Source: Immundisolibacter cernigliae | GTDB lineage: Bacteria; Pseudomonadota; Gammaproteobacteria; Immundisolibacterales; Immundisolibacteraceae | Reading direction: 5' to 3' | DNA: 64,000 nt | NCBI RefSeq assembly: GCF_001697225.1 | Contig: NZ_CP014671.1 | Coordinates: 3,038,001 to 3,102,000 of the forward strand | In this document: one piece after another, positions 23,078-43,601 of the stretch | Position numbering within the stretch: the stretch's first letter is position 1 | How the letters are laid out: every line of letters starts with the position of its first letter | Translations under genes and position numbers: made by a program | Notes under the pieces: model-generated | What the model was told of the DNA's origin: nothing | What the model saw: only the letters and a program-made list of their open reading frames with translations | Database searches by the model: none

Positions 23078-23436
23078 GCGTCGCGACCGCGTTGCCAAAG
23101 CCGTTCACGCACCTGGAATCCTGGCTGCCCTTTGCGCTGCCCAGCGAAGACGCACGCATGCGCCGCCGTCTGTCGGGCTCAATGGACGAGTTGCTTGGCC
23201 TTTACAAGGCGCTGGTAGGCGAAATGCCGGCCATCGCCGCGCATCTGGATCAATGGCCCCTGGCCGAATTGCCGGCCGAGCAAAAGCCGCTGCTGTACCT
23301 GGCGCTGTCGTTCATGGAATCGGCCATGGCCGTGGAGGCCTTCCACCAGCCCGGACCACCGCACGCCACCACGCCCGAAAGCATGGTGGTGTTTCCGGGG
23401 CGGGCCGAGGCGCTGTTGAGTCAGGAAAACACCTGA
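23074..23436 (+). CDS. Small conserved-looking hypothetical protein coupled to Rieske oxygenase
   Basis: Protein of 120 residues, no family recognised and no cysteine cluster, signal or membrane segment. The sequence is mildly acidic and predicted mostly helical (for example the ARMRRRLSGSMDELLGLYKA region). The ATG overlaps the Rieske stop codon (ATGA), so the two are made together. A role as accessory subunit or chaperone for the oxygenase is inference from coupling only. Confidence 0.6.
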   Translation: MSVATALPKPFTHLESWLPFALPSEDARMRRRLSGSMDELLGLYKALVGEMPAIAAHLDQWPLAELPAEQKPLLYLALSFMESAMAVEAFHQPGPPHATTPESMVVFPGRAEALLSQENT

Positions 23437-23486
23437 CATATCCAGCGTTTCCCACAGCACCTGCCGCAATAAGCCATCGAAAAACT

Positions 23487-23575
23487 GTAGGAGCCCGGCT
23501 ATGCCGGGCGATCCTCGCGCTGTAGGAGCCCGGCTGTGCCGGGCGATATCGCGCAGCGAAGCTGCGCTCCTACAC
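23487..23575. repeat. Tandem GGAGCCCGGCT-TGCCGGGCGAT repeats
   Basis: Two direct units, 23487-23512 and 23521-23575, the second followed by a second hairpin GCGCAGCGAAGCTGCGC. They lie in the convergent gap between the 120-residue gene and the hydratase-lyase. The arrangement resembles REP/BIME elements, and the stem-loops could also block read-through from both sides. Confidence 0.7.
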
Positions 23576-23651
23576 GGTATTCACAGTTGCCGGACGCCGA
23601 GACCCGCCGCAGGCCCGGGCGTCCGCGCCCCGCGCCGTTGGCCAGAGCCGC

Positions 23652-24473: not shown

Positions 24474-24571
24474 GGTTCTCCTTCCAGTTTTGTCGTTGGT
24501 AAGCGGGCGATCGGCGCCGCCCCGGCGTCGGCGACACACGCGGTTTTCCAGATGCGCTACCGCGTCGCTAA

Positions 24572-24587
24572 TTTAACATTCGTTTAA
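24572..24587. promoter_or_regulatory. AT-rich imperfect palindrome in the hydratase-lyase/ubiD divergent promoter
   Basis: TTTAACATTCGTTTAA stands out as AT-rich in a GC-rich 299-bp gap between divergent genes. Its half-sites TTAAC and GTTTAA are nearly inverted. It could be an operator or part of a promoter. No regulator is encoded beside it. Confidence 0.3.
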
Positions 24588-24772
24588 GTGCCTTCGCAGG
24601 GCGAAAACCGCTTGTGCGCGCTCGTGGGCAGGGCTATAACGAACCAACGTCGGGCCTGAACGTGTCAGGCCCCGGCCGGCCGTTAATTTGCGGCCAGCAA
24701 CGCAAGAAGCGCTGCTCTGGATCCATGGAGGATGCCAACCAACCGAACCCTACAAGCACCCGGAGGAGAGAC

Positions 24773-26242
24773 ATGGACCAGACCACCACCCAACCCACCC
24801 ACACCGGCCTGATGGACTTTCGCGCCTGGATCAACGAGCTGGAGCGCACCGGCCACCTGGTGAAAATCGCCGACGAAATCGACCCGCAGACCGAGGCCGG
24901 CGCCATCATGCGCCTGGCCAACGAGCGCCAGTCCCCGGCGCAGTGGTTCACCAATCTGAAAGGCGCCATGCCCGGATCGAGCCTGCTGGGCGGGCCGTTC
25001 GCCACCAAGGAACGCATCGCGGTCGCCTTCGGCCTGCCGCCGGACACGCCGTATTCGGTGCTGACCGACGTGTTCGCCGATGCCCTGCACGGCAAGCGCA
25101 TCAAGCCGGTGATCGTGCCGACCGGCAGCTGCCAGGAGAACGTGCTGCTCGGCGACGACGTCGATCTGGACCTGTTGCCGGTGGCCAAGCTGCATCCGCA
25201 GGACGGTGGGCCGTACATCGGTACGCTGAACATCGGCGTGTGCAAGGACTTCGACACCGACTGGGTGAACTGGGGCACCTACCGCGGCATGAAGCACGAC
25301 AAGAAAAGCACCGGCCTGTGGCTGGGTCCGCTGAACCAGGGCGGGCAAATCCTCAAGAAATACCGCGCCGCGGACAAGGTGATGGAATACGCCATGTTCT
25401 TTGGCGGCGATCCGATGCACAACATCGTGGCGTCCTCCAGCGTGCCGCCCGGCGTGTCGGAAGTGGACGTGGTCGGCGGCATCCGCGGCGAGCCGGTCAA
25501 GCTGGTCAAGTGCAAGACGGTGGACCTGTACGTGCCGGCGAACGCCGAAATCGTGCTGGAAGGCACCGTCAGCCCCGGCGATGAGAAGGAAGAAGGACCG
25601 TTCGGCGAATACCCCGGTTACGTCGTTTCCGGCACCAACGCCCGGCCGGTGTTCCGCCTGACGGCGCTGACCTACCGCAACAACCCCATCCTGCCGGCCA
25701 CCTGCCTTGGCGTGCCGGTGGACGACGCCGTCATGTGGGTGCTGGAAGTCGCCGCCAGCGTCAAGGAAGCCCTGCGCACCAAGGGCGTGCCGATCATCGA
25801 CGTGGCGGTGCCGGAGTTCAGCGGCTGTCACGCGGTGGTGGTGTCCACCAAGACGCCGCACGCCGGCATCCCGCAATTGATTTCGAGCATCAGCTGGGCC
25901 GACCGCAACGCCAGCTACTTCCCGTACGTGATCGTGGTGGACGAGGACATCGATCCCTGGAACCTGGGCGAGGTGTTCCACGCCATGTGCACCAAGTGCA
26001 ACCCGGTGCGCGACATCCACATCCACCCCGGCTACATCAACAGCCCGCTGACGCCGTACATCGCTGGCCATCCGCTGCGCGAACTGGGCGCCGGTGGCGG
26101 CAACGTGCTGCTGGACTGCACCTGGCCGATCGAGTGGAAGGCCGAGCAGCGGCCGCACCGCCTGGCCTTCAAGAACACCTATCCGGAAGCCGTGAAGGAC
26201 AAGGTACTGGCCAACTTCGCGCGCTGGGGCTTGCAGCGATAG
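24773..26242 (+). CDS. UbiD-family (de)carboxylase
   Basis: Protein of 489 residues in the UbiD family, whose members use prenylated FMN to decarboxylate or carboxylate aromatic and unsaturated acids. The conserved EGPFGEYPGYV region and PHAGIP segment are present. ATG at 24773 follows GGAGGAG; upstream in-frame ATGs lie in non-conserved sequence. The cofactor-making UbiX partner is not in the window. Position among aromatic genes favours a phenolic-acid decarboxylase over ubiquinone synthesis, but this is inference. Confidence 0.85.
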   Translation: MDQTTTQPTHTGLMDFRAWINELERTGHLVKIADEIDPQTEAGAIMRLANERQSPAQWFTNLKGAMPGSSLLGGPFATKERIAVAFGLPPDTPYSVLTDVFADALHGKRIKPVIVPTGSCQENVLLGDDVDLDLLPVAKLHPQDGGPYIGTLNIGVCKDFDTDWVNWGTYRGMKHDKKSTGLWLGPLNQGGQILKKYRAADKVMEYAMFFGGDPMHNIVASSSVPPGVSEVDVVGGIRGEPVKLVKCKTVDLYVPANAEIVLEGTVSPGDEKEEGPFGEYPGYVVSGTNARPVFRLTALTYRNNPILPATCLGVPVDDAVMWVLEVAASVKEALRTKGVPIIDVAVPEFSGCHAVVVSTKTPHAGIPQLISSISWADRNASYFPYVIVVDEDIDPWNLGEVFHAMCTKCNPVRDIHIHPGYINSPLTPYIAGHPLRELGAGGGNVLLDCTWPIEWKAEQRPHRLAFKNTYPEAVKDKVLANFARWGLQR

Positions 26243-28850: not shown

Positions 28851-29546
28851 ATGTCTGCAAATCGCAAGCGGCCGACAAACCACTATCTTACGCTGCATTA
28901 CACTGTTGTATTGATTCTTTACATTTCCGCATTTGGGATCGCTTATGCACTTCTGTCCATTCCCGCAGCCCACCGAGATTTCATGGTTTCTCTCTCCAGT
29001 GCCGCAATCCTAGCCACGTTCGGCTCCGCAATTGCTACGGTCGGTTCGCTCTGGACTGGTGATCATGCTAGTCGCATCGCTCTCAATGTGGACATTCTAT
29101 TTCGAGATATACTGAAGCAGGAAGCGTGGCGTCGCTGGCCATTTCTTCTTCGCGGCGGGACTCGACGCTTGTTTGGTGGCGACGTTCAGCATGTCGAGTT
29201 GCACAATCCAAAGATTACCCTCAACGTAGGCTCTCACGAGATTGATGTCACCGTTCCAACAGTGCAGGATGATTTCTTTGATCTCCCGCTTTTTCACAAC
29301 TTGGTCCCCTTATTTCGCTTCAGCAGAGCTGCGCATACAACCATTGTAAATTCAGCAAAAGATGACGTTTTCCCTAAGAACAATCTTAAACCGATGGATC
29401 AGTACTTCGCGTACGAATGCCTGGCACAGATTTGGTATAGCGTATTGATCTTCCGCACTGCAAGATATGTTGTGCATTTTGGTGCTGCGCTTACAATCGC
29501 TAGCGCACTCATTGGCGGAGCTGCCGCTTTCGCAAGTGCAGTCTAA
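28851..29546 (+). CDS. Integron-cassette hypothetical membrane protein
   Basis: Protein of 231 residues of unknown family. Two hydrophobic segments near the N-terminus (about residues 17-37 and 47-67) and one at the C-terminus (about 206-228) flank a soluble middle region. AT-rich codon use differs sharply from the chromosome. The stop codon TAA lies inside the first box of the attC site, a common layout in gene cassettes. Start ATG at 28851 is 22 bases after the core site GTTAGAC, leaving the short 5' leader typical of cassettes. Function unknown; it is next to an OLD-type nuclease, so a defence role is possible. Confidence 0.65.
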   Translation: MSANRKRPTNHYLTLHYTVVLILYISAFGIAYALLSIPAAHRDFMVSLSSAAILATFGSAIATVGSLWTGDHASRIALNVDILFRDILKQEAWRRWPFLLRGGTRRLFGGDVQHVELHNPKITLNVGSHEIDVTVPTVQDDFFDLPLFHNLVPLFRFSRAAHTTIVNSAKDDVFPKNNLKPMDQYFAYECLAQIWYSVLIFRTARYVVHFGAALTIASALIGGAAAFASAV

Positions 29547-29630
29547 CTATGTGCTCAACCGGTCCGTCGGGGACATGTTACGTTCAAACCAAACCATCTC
29601 GGCCCTTGGCCGGTTAGCACGGCGTTGGGC
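29541..29630 (+). other. Integron attC recombination site
   Basis: The 90-bp site has an outer box GTCTAAC (29541-29547, RYYYAAC) paired with GTTGGGC (29624-29630, GTTRRRY). The inner boxes are GTGCTCAACCGG (29551-29562) and CCGGTTAGCAC (29610-29620). They pair perfectly except for one unpaired C at 29556, the extrahelical base that directs strand choice in attC folding. Both spacers between outer and inner boxes are three bases. This geometry is specific to integron cassettes and unlikely by chance. Confidence 0.85.
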
Positions 29631-29663
29631 ACCGCACCCAGCTAACACTGATTCCAATCACCT

Positions 29664-30771
29664 GGCGTTCTCAAATCCGAAGTGCAACACAGTTTTCAAT
29701 GAAGGCTGGGTGAAGGTTGATGAGCATTGGCCAGGGTCTGCGCGAAGACCTGCAGCGGCGTTTGCCAGTCGTGAATCGCCCGGGGTCGGGTCTTGAGGCT
29801 GTCGGCGATGGCATCGAGTTCGGCTTGCGTGTGGATCGACAGGTCAGTGCCCTTGGGCAAGTATTGGCGCAGCAGCCCGTTGGTGTTCTCGCAGGTGCCG
29901 CGCTGCCACGGGCTGTGGGGGTCGCAGAAGTAGACCTTCACGCCCGTCTGCGCGGCCAGCTCGGCGTGTCTGGCCATCTCCTTGCCCTGGTCATAGGTAA
30001 GGCTCTGGCGCAGCGGTGCGGCGATCGAATTCAGCTTGGCAGAAAAGCCTGCCAGTGCCGAGGCCGCCGTAGCATCACTCATCTTGGCCAACAGCACCAA
30101 GCGGCTGGTGCGCTCGACCAAGACGCCCACCGAAGATTGGTTGCCCGCGCCCTTGATGAAGTCGCCCTCCCAGTGGCCGGGCATCACCCGGTCGTTGACC
30201 TCGGGCGGACGCACGTGAATGCTGACCATCGCAGGAATCCGGCCGCGCCGATCGGCGCCGCGCGTGCGCGGCAGGCGCGTGCTGCGACCGTGGCGCAGGC
30301 AGGCGATCAGCTGGCGGCGCAGTTCGCCACGCGGCTGGGCGTAGATCGCGGTGTAGATCGTTTCGTGGGACACGTGGCGTTGCGCCTCGTTGGGGTAGAC
30401 GCGTTTGAGGGTAGCGGCAATCTGCTGCGGGGACCATTTCCAGTCCAGTAAGGTGCGCACGATGCCCCAGGACACGGAGTGCGCACTGAGCTTGCGCGGT
30501 GGCCGGGCGGCGACCCGCCGTGCGGTGCGCAGCCCGTGGGCGGCTTCACTGGTGTAGCCCGCGTCGGGCGAGTGGTTGCGGGCCAACTCGCGGCTGATCG
30601 TGGAGGGCGAGCGCTCCAGTGTGCGGGCCATGGCCCGCACACTGGCCCCCAGCCGTGTCATGCCGGCCATGACGACCCGATCCTCAGGCCGCAGTTGCGT
30701 ATACGAACGTTTTTTTTCCATGGCAACACCTTACTCCGGGTGAGGTGTTGCACTTCAAACTTGAAACCGCC
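29664..30771 (-). mobile_element. IS30-family insertion sequence, complete
   Basis: A 1108-bp element bounded by imperfect inverted repeats of about 27 bp (outer end GGCG, inner end GAAGTGCAACAC), with a 3-bp target duplication CCT at 29661-29663 and 30772-30774. It carries one full transposase gene. It inserted between the attC site and the OLD-like gene, so it separates that gene from its upstream cassette boundary. A remnant of a related element lies at 11266-11332. Confidence 0.92.
29696..30721 (-). CDS. IS30-family transposase
   Basis: Transposase of 341 residues: N-terminal helix-turn-helix regions (EDRVVMAGM, then SPSTISRELARN) and a C-terminal integrase-like catalytic core with HWEGDFI (first Asp), LTYDQGKE (second Asp) and SPWQRGTCENTNGLLRQY (the acidic residue in CENTNG). 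Frame intact. Confidence 0.93.
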   Translation of the reverse strand: MEKKRSYTQLRPEDRVVMAGMTRLGASVRAMARTLERSPSTISRELARNHSPDAGYTSEAAHGLRTARRVAARPPRKLSAHSVSWGIVRTLLDWKWSPQQIAATLKRVYPNEAQRHVSHETIYTAIYAQPRGELRRQLIACLRHGRSTRLPRTRGADRRGRIPAMVSIHVRPPEVNDRVMPGHWEGDFIKGAGNQSSVGVLVERTSRLVLLAKMSDATAASALAGFSAKLNSIAAPLRQSLTYDQGKEMARHAELAAQTGVKVYFCDPHSPWQRGTCENTNGLLRQYLPKGTDLSIHTQAELDAIADSLKTRPRAIHDWQTPLQVFAQTLANAHQPSPSLH

Positions 30772-30798
30772 CCTCAATATTTTCTGGAGCAAACCCGC

Positions 30799-32115
30799 AT
30801 GAGTTCAATCTCTAAAGGCGATCTTGTCTTTCAACCTAGTTTGGCGGATTTCTCGGCGCAGCGAGCAGACAAAGCGCTCACAGTCCTTGCGGGAGCCAAC
30901 AATTCCGGCAAAAGCCTTGTACTCAAGTGGTTGAAGCAAACTCTTGGTCGCGTCGCCTATATGGTTGGGACAAATCGCTTCTATCACGTCTATCACTTCA
31001 GCACGGGCATCCGCGATCCGAATCAGGTGGATCAGTTTGAAAACCAGTTCAACAGCCAGTTCCATCAAGAGCAATACAACTACGAGCAGAACTTTCTCGA
31101 TCTCAACGGCATAATCGTCGGGCTTAGTAACAAACAGCGCTCAGCGCTGTTTGATCTTTGCAGTCAGCTCATCGGATCAACGTTCTCGCTAAAAAAGGTG
31201 GATGAAGAAAATGAGTTGAGTAATCGCTACATCGATATGGATGGCCAAAATCTGAGTGTTGGAAGTACTGGCACTCGTCTCTTGATGACTATCCTGGGTA
31301 TTTGCATGGATGATAGGTACAGCTCAATCCTGATCGACGAACCTGAGTTAGGGCTTGGGCCAAAAGTACAGCAAGCGCTTTCCTCGTTTCTACAGGACAC
31401 CGCGGAACGAAAGAAGTGTTTTCCTCATCTCAATCGGGTGTTTCTCGCTACGCATTCCCACCTGTTTCTTAGCAGAGATGACATCTCCAACAACTTCATC
31501 ATTTCAAAGAACGGGAAGAACATATGCCTGACTCAGGTAAATTCAATCTCTGACTTCCACCGTCTCCAGTTCAACTTGCTTGGCAACTCTCTTGAGTCAA
31601 TGTTCTTTCCCTCGGTGATCGTCGTAGTCGAAGGCAAAACCGATCATGAATACATTGAGCGAGTCCTTCAACTAAAGTTTCCGGGCCGCCGAATTACAGT
31701 AATTCCATCTGGGGGAGACGTTAAGAGGAAAGTGGCCGGACTTCGTGAGGCATTTGGCGACCTGATGAAGAGCCCGTTCCGTAGCCGACTATTTGTTGTT
31801 CTTGATAAGGTTCATCAACCCGGACTGGTTGCAGAATTACAGGAAATGGGCGTGCCAACGGACAATGTCGTTCGCTGGGAAAAAAACGGCATCGAATATG
31901 TTTACCCGAGTTCGCTCTTAGTGAGTGTCTTTTCGTGTGGAGAATCGCTATTGCAGGCGCTGTCGATTAGTGGTGACGTCATCACGTTGAACGGTATTTC
32001 AAAGACAAAAAATGCACTGAAGGACGAGATACTCAAGGGGCTTGACTCAAGTACTCCATTGCCGAGCGAATTGGAGATAAAACTGCTCGCGAAAGTTACG
32101 GTGGCCATTGAATAA
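30799..32115 (+). CDS. OLD-family ATPase/TOPRIM nuclease, likely defence gene
   Basis: Protein of 438 residues. The ABC-type ATPase half has Walker A GANNSGKS (32-39), a signature-like SVGSTGTR (153-160), Walker B LIDEPE (D180, E181) and H219 in ATHS. The TOPRIM half has VVEGKTD (E278) and VVLDK (D336). OLD nucleases cut DNA and several act in phage defence. Here the usual DxD is DKV, so the second acidic residue is missing and nuclease activity is uncertain. ATG at 30799 follows TGGAG. The gene is AT-rich, lies 25 bp after the IS30 element, and is followed by GCCCAAC (32121-32127), a possible attC box, so it is probably a second cassette. Confidence 0.75.
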   Translation: MSSISKGDLVFQPSLADFSAQRADKALTVLAGANNSGKSLVLKWLKQTLGRVAYMVGTNRFYHVYHFSTGIRDPNQVDQFENQFNSQFHQEQYNYEQNFLDLNGIIVGLSNKQRSALFDLCSQLIGSTFSLKKVDEENELSNRYIDMDGQNLSVGSTGTRLLMTILGICMDDRYSSILIDEPELGLGPKVQQALSSFLQDTAERKKCFPHLNRVFLATHSHLFLSRDDISNNFIISKNGKNICLTQVNSISDFHRLQFNLLGNSLESMFFPSVIVVVEGKTDHEYIERVLQLKFPGRRITVIPSGGDVKRKVAGLREAFGDLMKSPFRSRLFVVLDKVHQPGLVAELQEMGVPTDNVVRWEKNGIEYVYPSSLLVSVFSCGESLLQALSISGDVITLNGISKTKNALKDEILKGLDSSTPLPSELEIKLLAKVTVAIE

Positions 32116-32493
32116 GCGGTGCCCAACCCATCGTTCCAGCGAGCAAGGGTGGGCAAAGCACAGCGTGCCCACGCGGTTTTAGGATTTGGCAGATACACGG
32201 ACTTGGCCCGTTTGCCCCACGGGCCACACAAACACGATTCAACACGCCGGCAAAAAAACGCAACCTCAATTGCGAACGTCGGAGTCTCCCAATAATGAGC
32301 AAGCGTAGCCTGGATGGAGCGCAGCGGAATCCGGGGTGATGAGGCAGCCGGTTTCCCGTATTGCGCTGCGCTGCATACGGGCTACCAACGCTCAGGCATT
32401 CGGCCCGAGGGCGGGCCTCCCACAGGCCAGGGCTCCGCTCGCTACAAAACCCTTCAGGTGGCGCGCGATCGTTAACTCGGCTCTGCGCGCCGC
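32116..32493. other. Intergenic region with attC-like box and dispersed repeats
   Basis: No gene seen. GCCCAAC at 32121-32127, six bases after the OLD-like stop codon, fits the RYYYAAC box of attC, but I find no matching GTTRRRY within the next 150 bp. A hairpin repeat GTGGGCA/TGCCCAC starts at 32149, perhaps replacing the rest of the site. At 32305-32336 is a GTAGCC-GGATGGAGCGCAGCGGAATCCGGG-type repeat common in proteobacterial intergenic DNA. The C-terminal fragment of the aldehyde dehydrogenase follows. Confidence 0.5.
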
Positions 32494-32564
32494 TCACCGC
32501 ATGACAAACGGATCCGGCTGTTCGCGCGCCGTGCTGAGCCACACGGTCTTGGTCTGAGTGTAGG
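32494..32564 (-). pseudogene. Severed C-terminal end of the aldehyde dehydrogenase
   Basis: Encodes the last 21 residues (TQTKTVWLSTAR and following), which match the conserved end of aldehyde dehydrogenases. They join the body at 33651 onward in frame once the IS481 element and one TGTAGG copy are removed. On its own it is read only as an extension of the IS481 transposase. Confidence 0.85.
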
Positions 32565-33531
32565 TGTCACGTCCCGGCCGATTATTTGGCCTTCGATGAA
32601 ACAGCTCCGGTTTTGAAGCGTACCAGTGCTGAAGCGCTTGAGCCGGAGTCTGGGCGTTCAGTGCCTTCTGCGGCAAGTGGTGGTTGTAGAGCGTGACATA
32701 GCGGTGCAGGGTCTGCTCCAGGTCCTCGCTGGACCTGAAGTGGTGCGTGCGCAGCAGGTCCGCGATGCGCCCGTTGAAGCGCTCGACCATGCCATTGGTC
32801 TGCGGGTGGCGCGGGGGCGTCAGACGGTGCTCGATGCCCAGTTCCTGGCACAGGCGATCGAACTCATGCGTCCCGGTCGGGGCCCGCGCCCGGCTCCCGA
32901 ACAGCCGGTCCGTGAACTCGGTGCCGTTGTCGGTGAGCAGGCGCGTGATGCGCACCGGGCAGGCCGTGGCCAGGGCACTGAGGAAGGCGCGCGCCGAGCG
33001 CGCGCTCTTGTCGGCTTTCAGGGCCACGTAAACCCAGCGGGTGGCCCGATCGATGGCCACGAACAGGAACCGGCGCCGGTCCTCGTCGGCCATCTGCGGC
33101 AGGTACTTCACGTCGACGTGCACAAAGCCGGGCACGTAGGTCTTGAAGGTCTTGCTGACCGCTTTGTCCGGCGCCGGGCGCAGGGCGCGCAGGTTGCCCA
33201 CGCCGTGGCGGCGCAGGCAGCGGTCCAGCCCGGAGCGGGACACGTCCGGACACAGGAACTCGCGCGTCACCGCCAGCAGGTCGTCCAGCGGCAGCAGCAG
33301 GGCCCGGCGCAGGTAGACCACGATCGCCTCCTGGCCGGGGGTCAACGTCGTTTGCAGGCGGTGCGCGGTGTGCGGCCGGTCGTAGACATCCGGGCGCCGC
33401 TTCCATTTGTAGATCGTCGGCTCGGTGACGCCAAAGCGGCGGGCCAGCACCGCCACCGGCTCATCACTGGCCGCGATCTGCGCCCGCACGTGGGGCGTGG
33501 TGCGGGCTTGTTTGTGCAGTGCAATCAGCAT
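32494..33531 (-). CDS. IS481-family transposase, fused in frame to host gene tail
   Basis: Transposase of about 322 residues within the element: N-terminal helix-turn-helix (VAVLARRFGVTEPTIYKW) and integrase core with HVDVKYLP (first Asp), LLTDNGTEF (second Asp) and QTNGMVERFNG (Glu). The tail NNRPGRD resembles the family's usual C-terminus, but no stop codon occurs before the element ends. Translation runs into the aldehyde dehydrogenase end and stops at 32494, adding about 23 foreign residues. Depending on insertion site the element would use different host stop codons. Confidence 0.88.
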   Translation of the reverse strand: MLIALHKQARTTPHVRAQIAASDEPVAVLARRFGVTEPTIYKWKRRPDVYDRPHTAHRLQTTLTPGQEAIVVYLRRALLLPLDDLLAVTREFLCPDVSRSGLDRCLRRHGVGNLRALRPAPDKAVSKTFKTYVPGFVHVDVKYLPQMADEDRRRFLFVAIDRATRWVYVALKADKSARSARAFLSALATACPVRITRLLTDNGTEFTDRLFGSRARAPTGTHEFDRLCQELGIEHRLTPPRHPQTNGMVERFNGRIADLLRTHHFRSSEDLEQTLHRYVTLYNHHLPQKALNAQTPAQALQHWYASKPELFHRRPNNRPGRDTYTQTKTVWLSTAREQPDPFVMR

Positions 33532-33644
33532 GCGGACACCTCCCGATCAACCGCTTTCCCGTCCCCTGCCAGCTCCCGGAACACCTCGCGCGCCAGCAGC
33601 AGCGGGGACCGAGACGGAACTATATGATGATCCGGGATGGAACA
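32565..33644 (-). mobile_element. IS481-family insertion sequence, complete
   Basis: A 1080-bp element with inverted repeats starting TGT (TGTCACGTCCCGG at the left, TGTTCCATCCCGG reading in from the right) and 6-bp target duplications TGTAGG at 32559-32564 and 33645-33650. It inserted into the 3' end of an aldehyde dehydrogenase gene in the same orientation. Clean ends and duplications suggest a recent event. Confidence 0.93.
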
Positions 33645-35055
33645 TGTAGGCAGCCAGGGCCTCGGCGCCGTTCTCTCGCCCGATGCCGCTGGCCTTGTAG
33701 CCACCGAAAGGCGCCAGGTACGACACGGCCCGGTAGGTATTGACCCACACGGTGCCGGCGGCGAGCGCGTCGGACATTTCAAGCGCGCGGCGCAGGTTCT
33801 GCGTCCACACGCCGGCGGCCAGGCCGTAGTCGGAGTCGTTGGCGATGCGGATGGCCTCGTCCTGGTCGCCAAAGCGCAGCACGGACATGACCGGGCCGAA
33901 GACTTCCTCGCGAGCGATGCGCATGTCGTTGGTCACGTCCGCAAAGATGGTCGGCTGCACGAACAGGCCCTTGCCGCCGGCCGGGTGCGGGGCCGGGCCG
34001 CCGCCGAGTACGCAGCGGGCGCCTTCGGCCCTGGCGATTTCGATGTAGGAGAGGATTTTTTCGTACTGCGGGCGGGTGGTGACGGGGCCGACCTGCGTGG
34101 CCAGATCGGCCGGGTCGCCCAGTTTGGCGCGCCCGGCGAAGGCGACCAGGCGCTCGACGAAAGCGTCGTGGATGCTGTCCTCGACCAGCACGCGCGAGCC
34201 GGCGAGACAGGTCTGCCCGGTGGCGGCGAAGATGCCGGCGATGACGCCCTTGACCGCCTGGTCGAGGTCGGCGTCCGCAAACACGATGTTGGGCGACTTG
34301 CCGCCCAGTTCCAGCGTGGCGGGGATGAGGCGCTCGGCGGCGGCCTTGTACACGCCGCGCCCGCCGGACTCGCCGCCGGTGAAGGCGACCTTGGCGACCT
34401 TCGGATGCGCCACCAGCGGCACGCCGACTTCGGCTCCAAAGCCGGTCACCACGTTCAGCACGCCGGGCGGGAAGCCGACTTCGTCGAAGATGCGCGCCAG
34501 TGCGATGGAGGAGGCGGACGTGAACTCGGACGGCTTGAGCACCACCGTGTTGCCGGCGGCCAGCGCCGGGGCGAGCTTCCACGTCGCCAGCATGAGCGGC
34601 GAGTTCCACGGCGTGATGGCGGCGATCACGCCCAGCGGCTCCGGCCGCGTGTAGACCGTGACGTCGGGCTTGTCGATGGGGATGACGCGGCCTTCCAGGT
34701 TCTCGGCGAGACCCGCGTAGTAGCGGTACCAGGACGGCAGGTAGCGCGCTTGACCGCCGGTTTCGGCAATCAGCTTGCCGTTGTCGCGGGTTTCGATTTG
34801 GGCCAGCTCGCCGGCGGCCTGCTCCAGGCGATCGGCCAGGGCGCGCAGCAGGCCGGCGCGGTAGGCGGGTTTGCTGCGGCCCCAGCCGCTTTCGAATGCA
34901 GTTCGGGCCGCAGCCACGGCGGCATCCACGTCCGCCGGCCCGCCGCGGGCGATCTGTGCCCACGGTTCCAGCGTGTAGGGGTTTTCCGTTTCGAACCACT
35001 CGCCGCCGGCGGCGTCGCGGAACTGGCCGGCGATGTAGAGGGGAAAGCGCTGCAT
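33547..35055 (-). pseudogene. NAD(P)-dependent aldehyde dehydrogenase, 3' end cut off by IS481
   Basis: The body of an aldehyde dehydrogenase of about 491 original residues. Catalytic C283 (GQTCLAGSR) and E249 (LELGGKSPN) and the cofactor-binding region (PWNSPL to FTGG) are intact. After Y470 the frame enters the IS481 element and ends with 32 unrelated residues at 33547, replacing the conserved 21-residue C-terminus, which in this family takes part in subunit contacts. It may be inactive or unstable. It follows the cupin gene on the same strand, 97 bp downstream, so the two may form an operon. Confidence 0.85.
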
Positions 35056-35806: not shown

Positions 35807-36071
35807 TGGTTTGTCTCCTCGTCATCGATCGGGGTGCGGATGCGCCTGCGGGCAACGATAGCACCCGGTCGGCAGCCGAGATCGGGCTGTGCCGCGTCAT
35901 TGATGGTCGAACGCCGGGACGGTCCGGATGTCATCGATCCGCAACGGAACTGCCACCGGCCGGTCACACCAGGGTCACGGTTTCGAAAAGTGCGGCCCCG
36001 ATAGTTGGCTTCGGATGCCTTGGGCGTCCACCCACCAATCACGCCTTCGGGCACGCCTTCGGGGAGCAACG

Positions 36072-37352
36072 ATGCAAAAGACACTATTTTCTCGATTCAC
36101 GGGCGCGCTGTTTGCGGCCGGCTGCCTGTTCAGTGCCGTGCTGCACGCCGCCGGGCCGGCTGACGACCTTCAGGGCCCGCTGTCGGCGTTCGGCAAGCCG
36201 GACCTGCGTGCCAACGTTCAGGTGGGGCCGCGACCGTTTTATCTGGTCGCGGGCATGGACGAGGGCGCCCTGAAGTCGAAATTGAAGCGCTGTGCGGACG
36301 GGCCGTTCCGGCGTTCGGATTTTTCGATCGGCCATCGCGGTGCGGGGCTGCAGATTCCGGAACACACCAAGGAATCGTACGAGGCGGCGGCCCGGATGGG
36401 CGCCGGCATCGTCGAATGCGATGTGACGTTCACCAGCGATGGCGCGCTGGTGTGCCGCCACGCGGAATGCGACCTGCACACGACGACCAACATCGTTGCC
36501 ACCGATCTGAACAGCAAGTGCTCGGTGCCGTACAGCGGGCCCGGATCGTCGCCGAAGTGCTGCACCAGCGACATCACGCTGGCCGAGTTCCGGACGCTCA
36601 CCGGCAAGATGGACGCCAGCAACCCGGCGGCGACGGATGCGCAGGGCTACCTGGGCGGTACTGCCGACTGGCGCACGGACCTGTACACCGGGCGCGGCAC
36701 GCTGATGACGCTGGACGAGAGCATCGCGCTGAACCAGCGGCTTGGCGTCAAGCACACGCCGGAACTCAAGGGCGGCGATCCGGCGCGCATTGCGGCGGTA
36801 TTCGGCGGCCAGGCGCAGTACGCGCAGGCGTTGATCGACCACCTGCAGGCGGCGGGTGTCCGCCCGCGTGACGCCTGGCCGCAGTCGTTCGACCTGGCCG
36901 ACGTGCTGTACTGGATTCACAACGCGCCGGCCTATGGCCGCCAGGCGGTCTACCTGGTGGACTACGATCCGGCCGCGAAGGACACGCTGCCGCCGCTGCC
37001 GCTGGCGACGCTTGAGTCGCTCAAGGCCCAGGGCGTGAAGATCATCGCCCCGCCGATGCCGGCCCTGCTGGCGGTGGATGCCGAAGGCCGCATCGTGCCA
37101 TCGGCGCTGGCGAACGAGCTCAAGCGCCTCGGTTTCGACATCATCACCTGGACTTTCGAGCGCTCGGACCTGCGCCAGGGCGCGTCGAAAGCGGGCTTCT
37201 ACTACGCCTTCGATCCCGAGGGCCGGGCGATCGCCAAGGACAGCGACATGTACAAGGCGCTCGACGTGCTGGCCAAGCGCGTAGGCGTGCTGGGCATTTT
37301 CTCCGACTGGCCGGGCACGGTGACCTATTACGCCAACTGCATGGGTCTTTGA
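36072..37352 (+). CDS. Secreted glycerophosphodiester phosphodiesterase
   Basis: Protein of 426 residues with an N-terminal signal peptide (hydrophobic stretch ending near VLHAAGPA), so probably periplasmic. The GDPD domain shows the HRGAGLQIPEHTKESY catalytic region, then GIVECDVTFTSDG and CRHAECDL, and a C-terminal WTFERSDL. It hydrolyses glycerophosphodiesters to glycerol 3-phosphate and an alcohol. ATG at 36072 follows GGGGAGC; the frame is open upstream but the signal peptide fixes this start. Longer than classical GlpQ, with cysteine-containing insertions before the TIM-barrel end. Confidence 0.85.
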   Translation: MQKTLFSRFTGALFAAGCLFSAVLHAAGPADDLQGPLSAFGKPDLRANVQVGPRPFYLVAGMDEGALKSKLKRCADGPFRRSDFSIGHRGAGLQIPEHTKESYEAAARMGAGIVECDVTFTSDGALVCRHAECDLHTTTNIVATDLNSKCSVPYSGPGSSPKCCTSDITLAEFRTLTGKMDASNPAATDAQGYLGGTADWRTDLYTGRGTLMTLDESIALNQRLGVKHTPELKGGDPARIAAVFGGQAQYAQALIDHLQAAGVRPRDAWPQSFDLADVLYWIHNAPAYGRQAVYLVDYDPAAKDTLPPLPLATLESLKAQGVKIIAPPMPALLAVDAEGRIVPSALANELKRLGFDIITWTFERSDLRQGASKAGFYYAFDPEGRAIAKDSDMYKALDVLAKRVGVLGIFSDWPGTVTYYANCMGL

Positions 37353-37637: not shown

Positions 37638-38708
37638 TCAAGTGAAGTGCGGCATCACCTTGTCGGCAAACAGGCGCATGGAATTGCTGACCTTGTCGTG
37701 CGGCATGGCGCCGACGTTGGTCCACAGGATGATGTCCTGCAGGCCGACCTCGTCGCGCAGGCGGGTGATGCGCTCGATGGCTTCCTCGGGACTGCCGAAG
37801 ATGGCCAGCTCGCGGCAAACGAAGTCGTAGTTCAGGTCCTTGGTCAGCTCGCCCAGCTGCAGATAGCCCTTGTAGCTGTCCGGGAACTGGGCATGCTTTT
37901 CCTGCAGGCGGCCCATCATCTCGCCCATCATCACGCCGATGATGTCGTAGTAGCTCATCATGGCTTTTTCCACGTCACGCCGGGCGCGGTCGCCGTCGCT
38001 GTCGATGTACACCGGCAGCAGCACCGGCAGGCGGAACTTCGAGGCGTCTCGCTGGTACTTGGCCAGAGCCGCCTTGTAGCCGCCCACGGCCTGCTTGAGC
38101 TGCTCCAGCGGCAGCACCTGCGCCGGCAGGAACAGGTTGAAGCCGTACTCGCCGGCAAGATCGAAGGTGTCCGGGCTGAAGGCCGACACGAAAGTCGGCA
38201 GGGTCGGCTTTTGCACCGGCTTGGGCACCACGCGCACCCGGTCGATGCTGTTGAACTTGCCGTTGAAGCTGAATTCCTCCTCGGTCCAGGCCAGGCGGAT
38301 GATGTCCAGGTGCTCCCGGAACAGTGCCTTGGACTGGTCGATGTCGATGTTGAAATGGTCGTAGATGCCGGTCATCGGGTGGCCGCGGCCGATGCCCCAG
38401 TCGACGCGGCCGCCGGACAGGATGTCCAGCGTGGCGAGCTCTTCGGCCAGGCGCAGCGGCTGGTTGATCGGCAGCACGGAAATGCCCATGCCCAGACGAA
38501 TGCGTTTGGTGACCTGGCTGGCGGCGGCGGCCAGCAGCAGCGGTGCCGGCAGAATCGAATAGGCGCGCTGGAAGTGCAGTTCGGCCAGCCACAGGCAGTC
38601 GTAGCCCAGTTCGTCGGCCAGGCAGAACTGGTCCAGGTGCTCCTGGTAGAGCTCGGCGTCGCTGCGATCGGCGGCGCCCTGCATCTCGTAAAACAGACCG
38701 AATTTCAT
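37638..38708 (-). CDS. LLM-class flavin-dependent oxidoreductase
   Basis: Bacterial-luciferase-like monooxygenase of 356 residues. Typical features: MKFGLFYEMQ start, DCLWLAELHF segment, a SGGRVDWGIGRG motif and a central TFVSAFSPDTFD region. Members use reduced flavin and O2 on substrates such as aldehydes, alkanes and sulfonates, or F420. It is divergent from the diiron-oxidase/Rieske operon, sharing a 176-bp promoter region, so it may belong to the same pathway. No flavin reductase partner is seen. Confidence 0.85.
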   Translation of the reverse strand: MKFGLFYEMQGAADRSDAELYQEHLDQFCLADELGYDCLWLAELHFQRAYSILPAPLLLAAAASQVTKRIRLGMGISVLPINQPLRLAEELATLDILSGGRVDWGIGRGHPMTGIYDHFNIDIDQSKALFREHLDIIRLAWTEEEFSFNGKFNSIDRVRVVPKPVQKPTLPTFVSAFSPDTFDLAGEYGFNLFLPAQVLPLEQLKQAVGGYKAALAKYQRDASKFRLPVLLPVYIDSDGDRARRDVEKAMMSYYDIIGVMMGEMMGRLQEKHAQFPDSYKGYLQLGELTKDLNYDFVCRELAIFGSPEEAIERITRLRDEVGLQDIILWTNVGAMPHDKVSNSMRLFADKVMPHFT

Positions 38709-38884
38709 GCCGGACCACTCCTTGGATTGGCGGCGCGCACGGCGCCGGCTTGGGGTTTTCTTGACTTGCGGGTGAACGCGGCGCGACCATGCGCGCATGG
38801 CTGACTGAACGTTCCGTGGGCGGCTATTCGACCACCGGTTGCCATGCGCCGTCCACGCACCCCAACACGCGCAGGAGAAACACA

Positions 38885-39604
38885 ATGAACCAGCAGGACA
38901 TCGTCGACCGCATTGCCGCCCGCTGCGTGGAGTCGGCCAACACCTGGCCGTGGCTGACCGGCAAGATGACGGTCGGCATGGCGCAGGCCTGGATGATCCA
39001 GCACTCCATCCGCAACCGCCAGTTCAGTGCCAGCTACCGCCCGGCCTGGATGAGCCGCTGCCCGGACCAGGCGGTGGTGCGCAAGACCATCGGCCAGATG
39101 CTCGAAGAACTGGTCTATGACGAGAACCTGAAGGCGCCGCACACCAAGATCCTGTTCGAGATGGCCCGTACGCTCGGCCTGACCGACAAGCAGCTGCACG
39201 ACGCCGTGCCCAACGCCAAGACCGACATCTGGCACCAGGTGACCGAGAACCTGTGCCGCAACCGGCACTGGATCATCGGCTGGCTGTCGACCTCGCTGGA
39301 AGAATTCGTGCTGACCGCCATCGACCGCGAGACCAACATCAGCGCCGACAAGTGGCAGAAGGACCTGGGCCTGACCGACGAACAGCTGTTCTTCTTCCGC
39401 TACCACGAGAAGGCGGACATGGAACACGCCGGCAAGGTCGTGTGGGCGCCGATCAAGCGTCACGTGACCACGCCGGAACTGGCCGCCGACGTACTGGCCG
39501 GTCTGGATACGGCGCTGGAAGCCTCGCGCATCTTCTACGAAGGCGTGATGGACCTGGCCGCCGAGCTCGACGCGCAGGGCGTCAAGCTGCCGACCGCTGC
39601 TTGA
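38885..39604 (+). CDS. Haem-oxygenase-like diiron oxidase (TenA/PqqC superfamily)
   Basis: All-helical protein of 239 residues. Candidate iron ligands are E74/E75 (MLEELVYDE), H86, E139/E140 (STSLEEF) and the H174-x3-D178-x2-H181 motif, which together match haem-oxygenase-like diiron oxidases such as UndA and CADD rather than TenA thiaminases. These enzymes use O2 for decarboxylation, N-oxygenation or C-C cleavage. CAGGAGA precedes the ATG. It is the first gene of a four-gene operon with a Rieske oxygenase, an aldehyde dehydrogenase and an alcohol dehydrogenase. Substrate unknown. Confidence 0.75.
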   Translation: MNQQDIVDRIAARCVESANTWPWLTGKMTVGMAQAWMIQHSIRNRQFSASYRPAWMSRCPDQAVVRKTIGQMLEELVYDENLKAPHTKILFEMARTLGLTDKQLHDAVPNAKTDIWHQVTENLCRNRHWIIGWLSTSLEEFVLTAIDRETNISADKWQKDLGLTDEQLFFFRYHEKADMEHAGKVVWAPIKRHVTTPELAADVLAGLDTALEASRIFYEGVMDLAAELDAQGVKLPTAA

Positions 39605-39632
39605 CCCACATCATCTCAGGAGCCCCGACGCC

Positions 39633-40823
39633 ATGAATGCCAACACCCAGTTCATCCAGGATCTGGTCACCTTCCCGGCCAAGACCAATGCCATCCCCAA
39701 GGCGCTCTACGAGAGCGCGGAGATCTATCAGCTGGAAATGGAACGGCTGTTCTACGGGCCGCACTGGCATCCGGTGGCGCACGTGGGCGAGATCCCGAAC
39801 GCCGGCGACTACAAGACCTTCTATATCGGCGAGGTGCCGATCCTGATCACGCGTCTGGAAGGCGGTGCCGTCGGCGTGTTCCACAACGCCTGCTCGCATC
39901 GCGGCACCATGCTGGTGCCCGAGGTGCGCGGCAACGCCGGCGAGTTCCAGTGCCCGTATCACCGCTGGCTGTTCGACAACGGCGGCAACCTGCGCGGCGT
40001 GCCGGGCGAGAACGATTTTCCGGAAGACTTCTGCAAGGCCGACTTCGGGCTGCGCAAGATTCGCTACGAGGTGTTCGCCGGCCTGGTGTTCGCCACCCTG
40101 GATGACCACGCGGCGCCGCTTTCGGAGCAGCTTGGCGAGATCGCGGCGCCGCTGGCCGCCTCGCTGGGTGGTGACGGCAGGCTCAAGCTGCTCGGCTACC
40201 AGAAGGTCATGTACAACGCCAACTGGAAGACTTACCGCGATCAGGACGGCTATCACCCGCCGCTGTTGCACGCCGCCTTCAAGATGCTCAACTGGCAGGG
40301 CGGCAAGGGCGAATGCACGATTTCCGAGAACGGCAATATCGCGCTGGTGTCGCAGCTGGCGGCGGTGCGAAACGCCGATTTCCTGAAGGACCCGAGCCTG
40401 GTCGAGTTCAAGGGCGTGGACCCGAGCCAGGGTTCGTACGTGGTCTGCCCGTCACTGGTATCGTTCGGCAGCAAGCATCTGGACATGTTCAATTTCCGCT
40501 TTGGCATTCCGCGTGGGCCGCTCAAGACCGAGGTCCACTGGGCCTACTTCTGCCACGAGGATGACGACGAGGAAATGATCCGCCATCGGCTGCGCCAGTC
40601 GTCCAACATGCTCGGCCCATCGGGCTTGGTCAGCCTGGAGGACGCGGCCGTGTTCCACCGCATCCAGAATGCGCTCAAGGCCGGCACACCCAATGCCTAC
40701 TTCATGAAGGGCGTGCGCAAGGACGCCGATCCATACAAGTCCGGCCAGAACGACGAGATCGCCAACATCGTCTGGTGGGAGTGGTACCGCAAGCAGATGG
40801 GTTTCAGCCGCGCCGCGGCCTGA
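39633..40823 (+). CDS. Rieske aromatic oxygenase, alpha subunit
   Basis: Protein of 396 residues with Rieske ligands C87, H89, C107 and H110 and catalytic-domain motif DQDGYHPPLLH. It begins 28 bases after the diiron oxidase stop with CAGGAG upstream. No beta subunit, ferredoxin or reductase gene accompanies it. The CPYHRW Rieske variant and PPLLH motif place it with oxygenases acting on aromatic acids, but the substrate is not determinable. Confidence 0.87.
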   Translation: MNANTQFIQDLVTFPAKTNAIPKALYESAEIYQLEMERLFYGPHWHPVAHVGEIPNAGDYKTFYIGEVPILITRLEGGAVGVFHNACSHRGTMLVPEVRGNAGEFQCPYHRWLFDNGGNLRGVPGENDFPEDFCKADFGLRKIRYEVFAGLVFATLDDHAAPLSEQLGEIAAPLAASLGGDGRLKLLGYQKVMYNANWKTYRDQDGYHPPLLHAAFKMLNWQGGKGECTISENGNIALVSQLAAVRNADFLKDPSLVEFKGVDPSQGSYVVCPSLVSFGSKHLDMFNFRFGIPRGPLKTEVHWAYFCHEDDDEEMIRHRLRQSSNMLGPSGLVSLEDAAVFHRIQNALKAGTPNAYFMKGVRKDADPYKSGQNDEIANIVWWEWYRKQMGFSRAAA

Positions 40824-40964
40824 AGCGGCGGCCTACAACGAAATAAGGTTTTTGCGGTCCTGCCAGGGCCGGTCGGGTGAAAACAGCCGCAGCTTCGTTT
40901 ACCGAGCTGCGAGCGGGCCTGGTCCGGTCCTGCGCATGGCCGCTCGTGTCGAGGAGAACACCGC

Positions 40965-42440
40965 GTGAGTTACGACTTCGCGCCGCTGGTGAACAACACG
41001 TTTCCGGCGGTCAGTGAGCGTTTTACAGCCATCAATCCGGCGACGGGCGAGACCATCGGTTCGGTGCCGGAATGCGCCGGGCTGGTCGATGAAGCCGTGC
41101 GCGGGGCGCTGGCCGCCCAGCGCGAATGGGCCAAGGTGCCGCTGTTCCAGCGGGTGGGTCTGGTCGGCAAGCTGGCGGCGGTGCTGGAACAGCACGGCGA
41201 GGAGCTGGCGCAGCTGGACGTGCTCGATACCGGCAGTCCCATCCACGTCATGCGTGCCGACATCCGGGCCTCGGTCGGTATGCTGCGCCACCAGATGGGC
41301 CTGGCGCCGCAGGTTTTTGGCCGCTCCGGGGACCGCTTCACCGGCGACAACATCCATTTCACCCTGCCGCAGCCGTTCGGCGTGGTGGCGCGGTTCTGCG
41401 CCTTCAACCACCCGCTGATGTTCAGCATCATGCGCATCGCGGCGCCGCTATTGATGGGCAACTCGCTGATCATCAAGCCCTCCGAGCACACGAGTCTGTC
41501 GACGCTGCGCATCGCCGAGATTCTGGCCCCGCACATCCCGCCGGGCCTGATCCAGATTCTCACGGGAGGCGTCCCGGTGGGCGAAGCCATCGTCGGTCAC
41601 AAGGACATCAAGCGCATCACGCTGACCGGCGGCAAGGCGGCGGCGCTGGCCTTCTACCGCATCGCCGCCGAATCAGGGCACCTGAAGGATTTCACCTTCG
41701 AGCTGGGCGGCAAGAATCCGATGGTCATCTACCCGGACGCGGATGCCGAGAAGGCCTTCACGTCGGCCGTGCATGGCATGAACTTCTATCAGACGGCGGG
41801 CCAGAGCTGCGGCTCGACCAGCCGCATCTTCATCCATCGCTCGCTCTACGAGCAGGCCAAGGCGGCCATCAAGGCTGCCTGCGAGGCCATCCGCATCGGT
41901 GATCCGCAGGACCCGGATACGCTGATGGCGGGCCTGTCGACGCAGCAGCAGTTCGACAAGACCCTGCGTTACATCGAGCTTTCAAAGCGCGAGGGCCTGC
42001 CGCTGCTGACCGGTGGTGCGCGCCTGACCACGCCGCCGTTCGACAAGGGCTTCTATGTGCCGCCGACGGTGTTCTTTGACGTCACCCGCGAGCACACGCT
42101 GTTTCGGGAGGAAGTGTTCGGCCCGGTGCTGGCGCTGATCCCCTGGGACGACGAGCAGCAGATGCTGGCCGACATCAACGCCGTGGAATACGGCCTCACC
42201 GCCAGCGTGTGGACGTCGAGCCTGGACACGGCGATGGAGTTCGCGCGGCGGGTCGAGGCGGGCACCGTCTGGATCAATGGCTCGTCCAAGCACTTCCCGG
42301 GTTTCGGCTTTGCCGGCCAGAAGGACTCCGGCCTGGGCCAGGAAGAAACCCTCGAAGAGCTGGTGTCGTTCACGCAGCTGAAAGCCGTGCATTACTTCGG
42401 CGCCGAGGGGCGCAAAAACGTGGAGATTCGCCTGATATGA
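40965..42440 (+). CDS. Aldehyde dehydrogenase
   Basis: NAD(P)-dependent aldehyde dehydrogenase of 491 residues with catalytic C282 (GQSCGSTSR) and E246 (FELGGKNP). GTG at 40965 is the start, with GAGGAG eight bases before. It overlaps the alcohol dehydrogenase start by four bases (ATGA), so alcohol to aldehyde to acid oxidation is probably coupled. It is intact, unlike the IS-disrupted paralogue at 33.5 kb, to which it is only distantly similar. Confidence 0.9.
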   Translation: MSYDFAPLVNNTFPAVSERFTAINPATGETIGSVPECAGLVDEAVRGALAAQREWAKVPLFQRVGLVGKLAAVLEQHGEELAQLDVLDTGSPIHVMRADIRASVGMLRHQMGLAPQVFGRSGDRFTGDNIHFTLPQPFGVVARFCAFNHPLMFSIMRIAAPLLMGNSLIIKPSEHTSLSTLRIAEILAPHIPPGLIQILTGGVPVGEAIVGHKDIKRITLTGGKAAALAFYRIAAESGHLKDFTFELGGKNPMVIYPDADAEKAFTSAVHGMNFYQTAGQSCGSTSRIFIHRSLYEQAKAAIKAACEAIRIGDPQDPDTLMAGLSTQQQFDKTLRYIELSKREGLPLLTGGARLTTPPFDKGFYVPPTVFFDVTREHTLFREEVFGPVLALIPWDDEQQMLADINAVEYGLTASVWTSSLDTAMEFARRVEAGTVWINGSSKHFPGFGFAGQKDSGLGQEETLEELVSFTQLKAVHYFGAEGRKNVEIRLI

Positions 42441-43537
42441 AAGCCAGTGCCCTGGTGCTTGCCGCCTACAAGGAACCGCTCGAAGTCCGTCAGTTCGACG
42501 TGCCGGAGCCTGAGCCCGGCGCGATCGTGGTCAGGATCGACCGCGCGACGATCTGTGGCACCGACCATCACGTGCACATGGGGCTGCTGCAGCCGGTGTC
42601 GAAAACGCCCGCCATCCTCGGTCACGAGATGGTCGGCGTGATCGAAAAACTCGGTGCCGGTCGGGATACCGACGTGGCCGGCGCGCCGCTGGCCAAGGGC
42701 GACCGGGTGATCTGGGCCTATGCCTATTGCGGCAAGTGCTACTACTGCGTGGTGGCCCACCAGCCGACGCTGTGCACCAATTTCACGCCCTATGGCTATG
42801 CCGACTGCAGCAAGCCGCCGCATCTGCTGGGCGGCTTCGCGCAGTACGCCTACATCCTGCCGGCCTGCCACGTGGTCAAGGTGCCGGACGAGGTGCCCAG
42901 CCACTGGGCTTCGTCCGCCAGCTGCGCGCTGCGCACCATCATGCACGCCACGGCGCGCGCCGGCGGCATCCGGCCGGCCGAGACGGTGTTGGTTCAGGGC
43001 AGCGGGCCGGTGGGTCTGTACGGCGTGGCGGCAGCGCGCGCCTTCGGTGCCCGGCGGGTGATCTGCTTCGGCGCCCCGGACGGGCGGCTGGACGTGGCCA
43101 CGGCGTTCGGCGCCGACGCCGTGTGCAACATCGAGAAGACCGACGCCAAGCAGCGCGCGGAGCTGGTGCGCAGCTTCACTGACGGCCGCGGCGCGGATCT
43201 GGTGTTCGAATGCTCAGGCTCGCACCACGCACTCGAAGAAGCCATCGGCATCACCCGCATGGGCGGGCGCATCGTCGTGATCGGCGCCGGTGACCCGCAG
43301 CCGGCGCAGATTCCCGGCATGGCCTTCGTGATGAAGCAGATCAGCGTGCACGGTATCCGCTCGGCCGGCATCGAGTACTACCGCGAGGCACTGGCCTTCC
43401 TGGCTGCCCAAAAGGACAACTTCCCGTTCGAGCGGCTGTTTGGCGAAACCTACAGCCTGGCCGAGATCCCGAAGGCCATGGAACGCATGCACCGGCTGGA
43501 GGAGATCAAGCCGGTGGTGGACCCGTTCAAGAACTAG
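42437..43537 (+). CDS. Zinc-dependent alcohol dehydrogenase
   Basis: Medium-chain dehydrogenase of 366 residues. Catalytic zinc ligands C40 and H63/E64 (GHEMVG), structural zinc cysteines C98, C101, C104 and C113 (CGKCYYC), and the NAD-binding GSGPVG. Last gene of the operon; a strong terminator follows at 43562. Together with the upstream aldehyde dehydrogenase it should oxidise an alcohol formed by the oxygenases. Substrate unknown. Confidence 0.88.
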   Translation: MKASALVLAAYKEPLEVRQFDVPEPEPGAIVVRIDRATICGTDHHVHMGLLQPVSKTPAILGHEMVGVIEKLGAGRDTDVAGAPLAKGDRVIWAYAYCGKCYYCVVAHQPTLCTNFTPYGYADCSKPPHLLGGFAQYAYILPACHVVKVPDEVPSHWASSASCALRTIMHATARAGGIRPAETVLVQGSGPVGLYGVAAARAFGARRVICFGAPDGRLDVATAFGADAVCNIEKTDAKQRAELVRSFTDGRGADLVFECSGSHHALEEAIGITRMGGRIVVIGAGDPQPAQIPGMAFVMKQISVHGIRSAGIEYYREALAFLAAQKDNFPFERLFGETYSLAEIPKAMERMHRLEEIKPVVDPFKN

Positions 43538-43561
43538 ACAAAGAAGGGGAGGGGTAATCCA

Positions 43562-43601
43562 GCGGCAGCTACCCAGGCGCAGGGTAGCTGCCGCTTTTTT
43601 T
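43562..43601 (+). terminator. Rho-independent terminator of the diiron oxidase/Rieske operon
   Basis: Perfect 13-bp stem GCGGCAGCTACCC with its complement around a 7-nt loop, followed by seven Ts (43595-43601). It is 25 bp after the alcohol dehydrogenase stop. On the other strand it lacks a T-tract, so it acts mainly on the plus strand, before the convergent dsbA. Confidence 0.93.

Follow-up and report, generated by a model that had tools for sequence, protein, structure and literature searches.

About a dozen haem-oxygenase-like diiron oxidases (HDOs) have been functionally validated, predominantly with fatty-acid and amino-acid substrates, and excerpts of a 2026 review (PMC13108848) frame the family as one of natural-product biosynthesis; the same excerpts describe five substrate-bound HDO structures in which the substrate ligates iron 1. 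In CADD, which like NePabS is a self-sacrificing p-aminobenzoate (pABA) synthase with the HDO fold, the sacrificed tyrosine and the donor lysine are Tyr27 and Lys152 according to parts of PMC11965152. A Rieske oxygenase is combined with alcohol and aldehyde dehydrogenases in TsaMBCD, which oxidizes the side chain of 4-methylbenzoate and 4-methylbenzenesulfonate. The present work concerns a gene cluster of Immundisolibacter cernigliae in which an HDO is encoded together with a Rieske oxygenase, an aldehyde dehydrogenase (ALDH1), and a zinc-dependent alcohol dehydrogenase (ADH), divergently from a luciferase-like flavin-dependent monooxygenase (LLM); it lies in the window, i.e., the whole stretch of 64,000 nucleotides that was analysed (contig NZ_CP014671.1, positions 3,038,001 to 3,102,000).

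The cluster had been put forward as a candidate undescribed oxidative pathway (the original prediction). The enzyme superfamilies are all known, and neither the combination of enzymes nor the HDO subfamily nor a putative ferritin-like partner protein (FLO) was found in the literature searched; what is new is the association of HDO and FLO in a sister genus and in Binatia, and FLO, which lay outside the view of the original prediction, is the strongest new clue. It is quite possible, as a tentative reading, that the genes constitute a dedicated Immundisolibacteraceae catabolic cluster for an aromatic compound, probably an alkyl- or carboxyl-bearing one, the order of the steps being a conjecture from the enzyme classes and the substrate a presumed one.

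Conservation of the Cluster in Immundisolibacteraceae

An HDO of the window type (at least 65% identity) is encoded in six of the seven genomes of the family, the seventh being 72% complete, and in all six the LLM gene lies beside the HDO gene and diverges from it. Where the contigs extend further downstream, Rieske and ADH genes follow in 5/5 genomes and ALDH1 in 4/5. In the genus of the window (G000, G001, and G002) the divergent LLM is followed by HDO-Rieske-ALDH-ADH. In the sister genus the order after LLM is HDO-HDO-FLO-Rieske-Rieske-ALDH-ADH in G004, with ADH cut by the contig end, and HDO-HDO-FLO up to the contig end in G005, while G006 has one contig with LLM and HDO and a second that carries HDO-FLO-Rieske-ADH-UbiD. 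Between the two genera HDO, Rieske, LLM, ALDH1, and ADH share 61–77% identity. Since this core is kept in both genera and the flanks of the cluster differ between them, LLM with HDO-Rieske-(ALDH)-ADH is taken to be a real unit and not a chance row. Non-conserved neighbourhoods had been named beforehand as grounds for refuting the original prediction, and the neighbourhood analysis found the arrangement conserved in relatives.

Immundisolibacter is a soil bacterium, and its 3.24-Mb genome holds 63 matches to the Rieske alpha catalytic domain (PF00848), compared with 21 xylX variants reported for I. cernigliae in excerpts of PMC9535955, and 12 to LLM. In a genome so rich in oxygenases the genes could be neighbours largely by chance; this explanation is very improbable in view of the same gene order in two genera despite different flanks and at the identities given above.

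The unit probably reaches further, to a second aldehyde dehydrogenase (ALDH2), because LLM, a cupin-like gene, and ALDH2 are contiguous in the congener G002 (loci L014 and L020), where the cupin gene comes 10 bp after LLM. Judged on gene order, the unit is thus bidirectional, with one arm made up of LLM-(cupin-ALDH2) and the other of HDO-Rieske-ALDH1-ADH. The set is rare at class and phylum level, because the HDO matches there (3/369 class genomes and 1/398 phylum genomes) and the FLO matches (3/274 genomes in class and phylum sampling) all come from Immundisolibacteraceae itself; no HDO relative was found in viral contigs and plasmids. Genes in these loci were called with our own codon-position script, and some are miscalled (e.g., antisense open reading frames in L013).

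Further copies occur in the family. In the second Rieske protein of G004 (L015:2069-3352, minus strand) a serine replaces the first of the Rieske cysteines, and the protein may therefore be a degenerate partner of the first Rieske protein. A second HDO (51% identity) is located away from the cluster in G000 (C1:1783150-1783803, L012), and a 51%-identical HDO of G006 (L019) adjoins genes for a Rieske enzyme, LigB, a hydrolase, and an SDR.

The Haem-Oxygenase-like Diiron Oxidase

The HDO matches PF14518 with 52.6 bits (cut-off 28.9), and its model (pLDDT 89.7, pTM 0.88) has the haem-oxygenase-like helical fold. In structural comparisons the model aligns with SSO2700 (Z 22.3, root mean square deviation 2.9, 228 aligned residues), CADD 1rcw (18.9, 2.6, 205), PqqC (18.3, 3.0, 215), BesC (16.9, 3.2, 208), and UndA (15.7, 3.6, 216), and it aligns to TenA folds with Z values of 15–17. 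A role in thiamine salvage is considered improbable, Pfam giving no TENA_THI-4 match at 1e-3; the earlier statement that the oxidase is not thiamine-related agrees with this and with the PF14518 assignment, though the fold is common with TenA.

Seven residues, E75, D79, H86, E140, H174, D178, and H181, are invariant in all 38 aligned HDOs, nine of which come from a distant branch. They include the predicted HxxxDxxH signature (H174-xxx-D178-xx-H181) and provide the three-histidine/three-carboxylate ligand pattern of the HDO superfamily, with E75 or D79 as the predicted first carboxylate. On H86 spacing and sequence alignment, D79 is likely to take the place of the first CADD glutamate, with the ligand numbers and ligand spacing of CADD being those that we presume for that enzyme, and E75 may be a fourth carboxylate ligand. 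UndA, BesC, HrmI, PolF, and other characterized HDOs share the fold and the ligand pattern; they differ in sequence, with 10–16% identity to the window HDO in structural alignments, and, as described in excerpts of PMC13108848, they act mostly in biosynthesis on fatty or amino acids, whereas the window HDO has a putative catabolic setting and a ferritin-like partner family. Its sequence places the protein in an HDO subfamily of its own, in which every expected metal ligand is present.

Among solved chains, the 4-aminobenzoate synthase 9pj4 (E 1.3e-8) alone matches in sequence, and this together with the weak NCBIfam CADD match could suggest a CADD-type self-sacrificing pABA synthase with unrelated neighbours. 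CADD and NePabS have in common with the window protein the fold, the H-x3-D-x2-H motif, and the upstream H86 and E140, but differ from it in the donor residues, in the Asp at the likely first-Glu position, and in the oxygenase-cluster context. When the CADD tyrosine and lysine are mapped by sequence alignment and position rather than by superposition, position 156, near the CADD donor lysine, is a lysine in only 8/38 HDOs, and the invariant tyrosines of a 16-sequence alignment are Y173 and Y218, none being in the first 100 positions. The match to NCBIfam CADD (TIGR04305) reaches 32.5 bits, far under the cut-off of 200. This identity has almost no probability and was rejected on donor residues and score, so that the oxidase stands outside any family tied to a known pathway; membership of such a family would likewise have counted against the original prediction.

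The Putative Ferritin-like Partner and its Pairing with HDO

In the sister genus a protein of 275 aa (P0006, FLO) is encoded between HDO and Rieske. It has no Pfam or NCBIfam family match and no PDB sequence match, and its model (pLDDT 49.9), examined for a four-helix ferritin-like fold, is too poor to use and gives no meaningful structural match. Residues E49, E83xxH86, E165, and E199xxH202 are invariant in 9/9 homologues, down to 20% identity, and correspond to E, ExxH, E, ExxH, the ligands predicted for a ferritin-like diiron oxygenase; ligand sets vary within that group (excerpts of PMC13108848).

In seven genomes with more distant HDOs, a profile of the family FLOs alone gave two matches, both directly downstream of an HDO gene. 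Among 145 genomes of Binatia, the class to which one of these two belongs, 18 have a close HDO and 13 a close FLO, two of the latter being rows of the FLO profile used, and all 13 FLO genes adjoin an HDO gene; the hypergeometric P of this pairing (7e-15, uncorrected for relatedness) is only a guide because the Binatia genomes are related. At close-HDO loci outside Immundisolibacteraceae, FLO is found at 13/20. On these gene neighbourhoods, the HDO subfamily is genetically linked to FLO in two bacterial groups that are far apart. In Binatia, distant HDO genes also occur as tandem pairs (L097:6411-7847 and L098:7248-8697), resembling the paired HDO genes of the sister genus.

In the Immundisolibacter genome, FLO genes are located at two other places, one adjoining a Rieske gene and the other two genes from one. 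A partnership of FLO with Rieske as a general rule was rejected, since the abundance of Rieske domain matches makes such links weak and none is present at the 27 HDO/FLO loci and 20 distant-FLO loci outside the family.

It is conceivable, though unlikely, that HDO and FLO each supply one half of a diiron oxygenase module, undescribed so far, for aromatic acids; they would act on a single substrate jointly or one after the other, and would be combined here with Rieske and flavin oxygenases.

Gene Neighbourhoods outside the Family

The fullest Binatia operon (L085) encodes MaoC, an HpcH/HpaI lyase, a KAS III-like/OB protein, a thiolase, HDO, FLO, a small protein, a sodium:solute symporter, LLM, and a MaoC-like protein, a content that, as annotated, corresponds to uptake and CoA-type breakdown. 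The neighbourhoods of more distant FLOs were collected from 20 of the 26 genomes having only distant FLOs; at these 20 loci a 3-hydroxyanthranilate-dioxygenase-like (3-HAO-like) gene is found at 10, the large subunit of a molybdenum hydroxylase at seven, and UbiD at six, with each neighbour-cluster family named from one Pfam-scanned member. Loci L083, L095, and L096 were excluded from the clustering as duplicates of L028, L029, and L030. The G006 UbiD, encoded next to ADH, shares 46–47% identity over about 530 residues with five of the six Binatia UbiDs of distant-FLO loci, and 52% over 251 residues with the sixth, truncated one. These neighbourhoods, together with the likeness of the UbiDs, point to a putative aromatic-acid catabolism. 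The UbiD of the window (24680-26242) was considered as the counterpart of the G006 protein and discarded as not orthologous (29% identity). In PMC8262859, on Binatota genomes, the five aromatic-degradation terms looked for were not found.

LLM genes of one cluster lie in the HDO/FLO neighbourhood at 10 Binatia loci. Their identity to the window LLM is 28% for the L085 operon protein and 35–36% for other Binatia LLMs, with 35% for that of L094. Two Binatia genomes (G849 and G775) have a remarkable expansion of the family, with 126 scored LLM matches each, which equals all candidates scored. A Binatia triad of LLM with HDO and FLO is unsupported, given this abundance and the low identity of the L085 protein.

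The same neighbourhoods bear on whether the cluster is a biosynthetic one for a secondary metabolite, as for most characterized HDOs. Both HDOs and LLMs typically serve in tailoring, and the solved structure that the LLM matches best in sequence, along its entire length, is RslO1 (7bip, E 5.7e-37), an FMN-dependent luciferase-like monooxygenase that, in parts of PMC8093152, is proposed to form an epoxide with the flavin reductase RslO2 in the biosynthesis of the polyketide rishirilide. Against this, the cluster contains no scaffold-building enzyme or exporter, the operons of the relatives include thiolase, lyase, and importer genes, and the host lineage is a degrader of polycyclic aromatic hydrocarbons (PAHs; excerpts of PMC9535955); a biosynthetic role is therefore improbable.

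The Rieske Oxygenase and the Proposed Route

The Rieske oxygenase has the cluster ligands C87/H89/C107/H110, the iron site H208/H213/D337, and the bridging D205. Its three best PDB matches include the large subunits of terephthalate 1,2-dioxygenase (7q04, E 6e-47) and salicylate 5-hydroxylase (7c8z, E 1e-45), both of which work with a beta subunit. No beta subunit, as an alpha3-beta3 enzyme has, is encoded with the Rieske alpha of the cluster, the nearest of 44 PF00866 (beta) matches in the genome being about 30 kb from it, and no reductase was seen in the cluster.

In the proposed catabolic route, the Rieske enzyme would hydroxylate a C-H bond with electron carriers encoded elsewhere, and ADH and then ALDH1 would oxidize the alcohol to the carboxylate, returning NADH, with the same logic as in TsaMBCD (parts of PMC10579966). 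The carboxylate would then bind iron 1 of HDO, which would use O2 to decarboxylate or hydroxylate it; a carboxylate is expected because the substrate ligates iron 1 in the substrate-bound structures covered by excerpts of PMC13108848. In genomes with FLO at the cluster, FLO would be a second diiron oxidase or partner in this step; in Immundisolibacter it might take this part in trans, encoded at a different locus. Finally, LLM with reduced flavin, and then the cupin and ALDH2, would act on the product.

A rival explanation is a Tsa-like side-chain cassette, in which the Rieske enzyme oxidizes a methyl group and ADH and ALDH carry the oxidation on to the acid, recycling NADH, with HDO, LLM, and the cupin as accessories off the main route. 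The composition matches TsaM-TsaC-TsaD as described in portions of PMC10579966, and the Rieske, ALDH, and ADH genes are contiguous; nevertheless HDO is the first gene, LLM diverges from it in 6/6 genomes, and the sister genus has retained and even duplicated HDO. A TsaB-like reductase was not seen in the cluster, its ADH is of the zinc MDR type and not an SDR as TsaC is, and HDO, LLM, and the cupin are additional. Such a cassette is somewhat unlikely, albeit to be kept in mind.

Several observations weigh against the catabolic cluster as proposed. Because of the 63 alpha-subunit domains in the genome, the Rieske neighbour alone is weak evidence; no Rieske gene is near HDO/FLO in 27 loci outside the family, and the 20 distant-FLO loci are without Rieske and also without HDO by the profiles used. 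Moreover, G006 has no ALDH1 between Rieske and ADH, FLO is not at the cluster locus in the three Immundisolibacter genomes, no CoA ligase, transporter, or regulator was found inside the cluster, nor any enzyme for ring cleavage, save perhaps the cupin, and HDO may act before the Rieske step. The undescribed pathway of the original prediction is borne out in part: the conserved neighbourhood and the absence of a known-pathway family speak for it, and the pathway itself is a proposed one.

Gene Layout and Surroundings

All the genes of the original prediction were found without internal stops (Table 1), including the four plus-strand genes at 38885-43537 with intact frames, the divergent LLM, and the strong terminator at the operon end. 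The terminator scan gave four terminator-like sites in total versus 6.0 expected from shuffles, so that only the perfect stem of the listed site counts. The HDO start at ATG 38885 is likelier than the longer open reading frame start at 38789, the ADH start lies within the end of the ALDH1 gene (4-bp overlap), and an AGGAG-type ribosome site precedes each of HDO, Rieske, ALDH1, and LLM, while no sigma-70 consensus site was found in the LLM/HDO intergenic region. The predicted nearby cupin exists as a gene, but it has no Pfam match at 1e-3, and its putative label derives from a pattern recognized by eye.

Table 1. Features of the HDO locus, with positions counted from the first nucleotide of the window.
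Feature	Position	Strand	Remarks
ALDH2, aldehyde dehydrogenase	33547..35055	-	GQTC and LELGGKSP motifs; 97 bp after cupin; probable member of LLM-side transcript
Cupin-like protein, 217 aa	35153..35806	-	HDH..H pattern by eye
GDPD-family phosphodiesterase	35928..37352	+	Between LLM and cupin; absent from that place in G002; probably outside the system
LLM, luciferase-like flavin-dependent monooxygenase	37638..38708	-	PF00296, 217 bits; nearest solved relative RslO1 (7bip)
Divergent intergenic region, 176 bp, presumed promoter region	38709..38884	.	
HDO, haem-oxygenase-like diiron oxidase	38885..39604	+	PF14518; ligand candidates E75/D79, H86, E140, H174, D178, H181
Rieske oxygenase alpha subunit, no beta subunit in operon	39633..40823	+	PF00355 and PF00848
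ALDH1, aldehyde dehydrogenase	40965..42440	+	
Zinc-dependent (MDR) alcohol dehydrogenase (ADH)	42437..43537	+	PF08240/PF00107
Intrinsic terminator	43561..43595	+	Perfect 14-bp stem, 7-nt loop, T run

Other parts of the window contain a second aromatic set at 19838-26242, with a LigB-type dioxygenase, an alpha/beta hydrolase, a Rieske alpha, a crotonase-like gene (minus strand, assigned by similarity), and a UbiD decarboxylase, and, at 7737-10490, a row of genes for Rieske alpha and beta subunits and a dioxygenase-like protein of the glyoxalase fold (VOC). The partly low-GC stretch at 28851-33531 harbours an IS30 transposase, an AAA ATPase with weak similarity to the retron Eco8 effector, a 231-aa protein without assignment, and a second, rve-type transposase adjoining ALDH2.

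Implications

Should an HDO subfamily belong to degradation clusters, the chemistry of HDOs would extend beyond what is known so far, and the recurring ferritin-like neighbour provides a concrete partner. If the HDO-FLO module is real, it would represent a catabolic use of HDO and a new family of aromatic-degrading diiron proteins, and the cluster may help to explain how Immundisolibacter attacks its PAH substrates.

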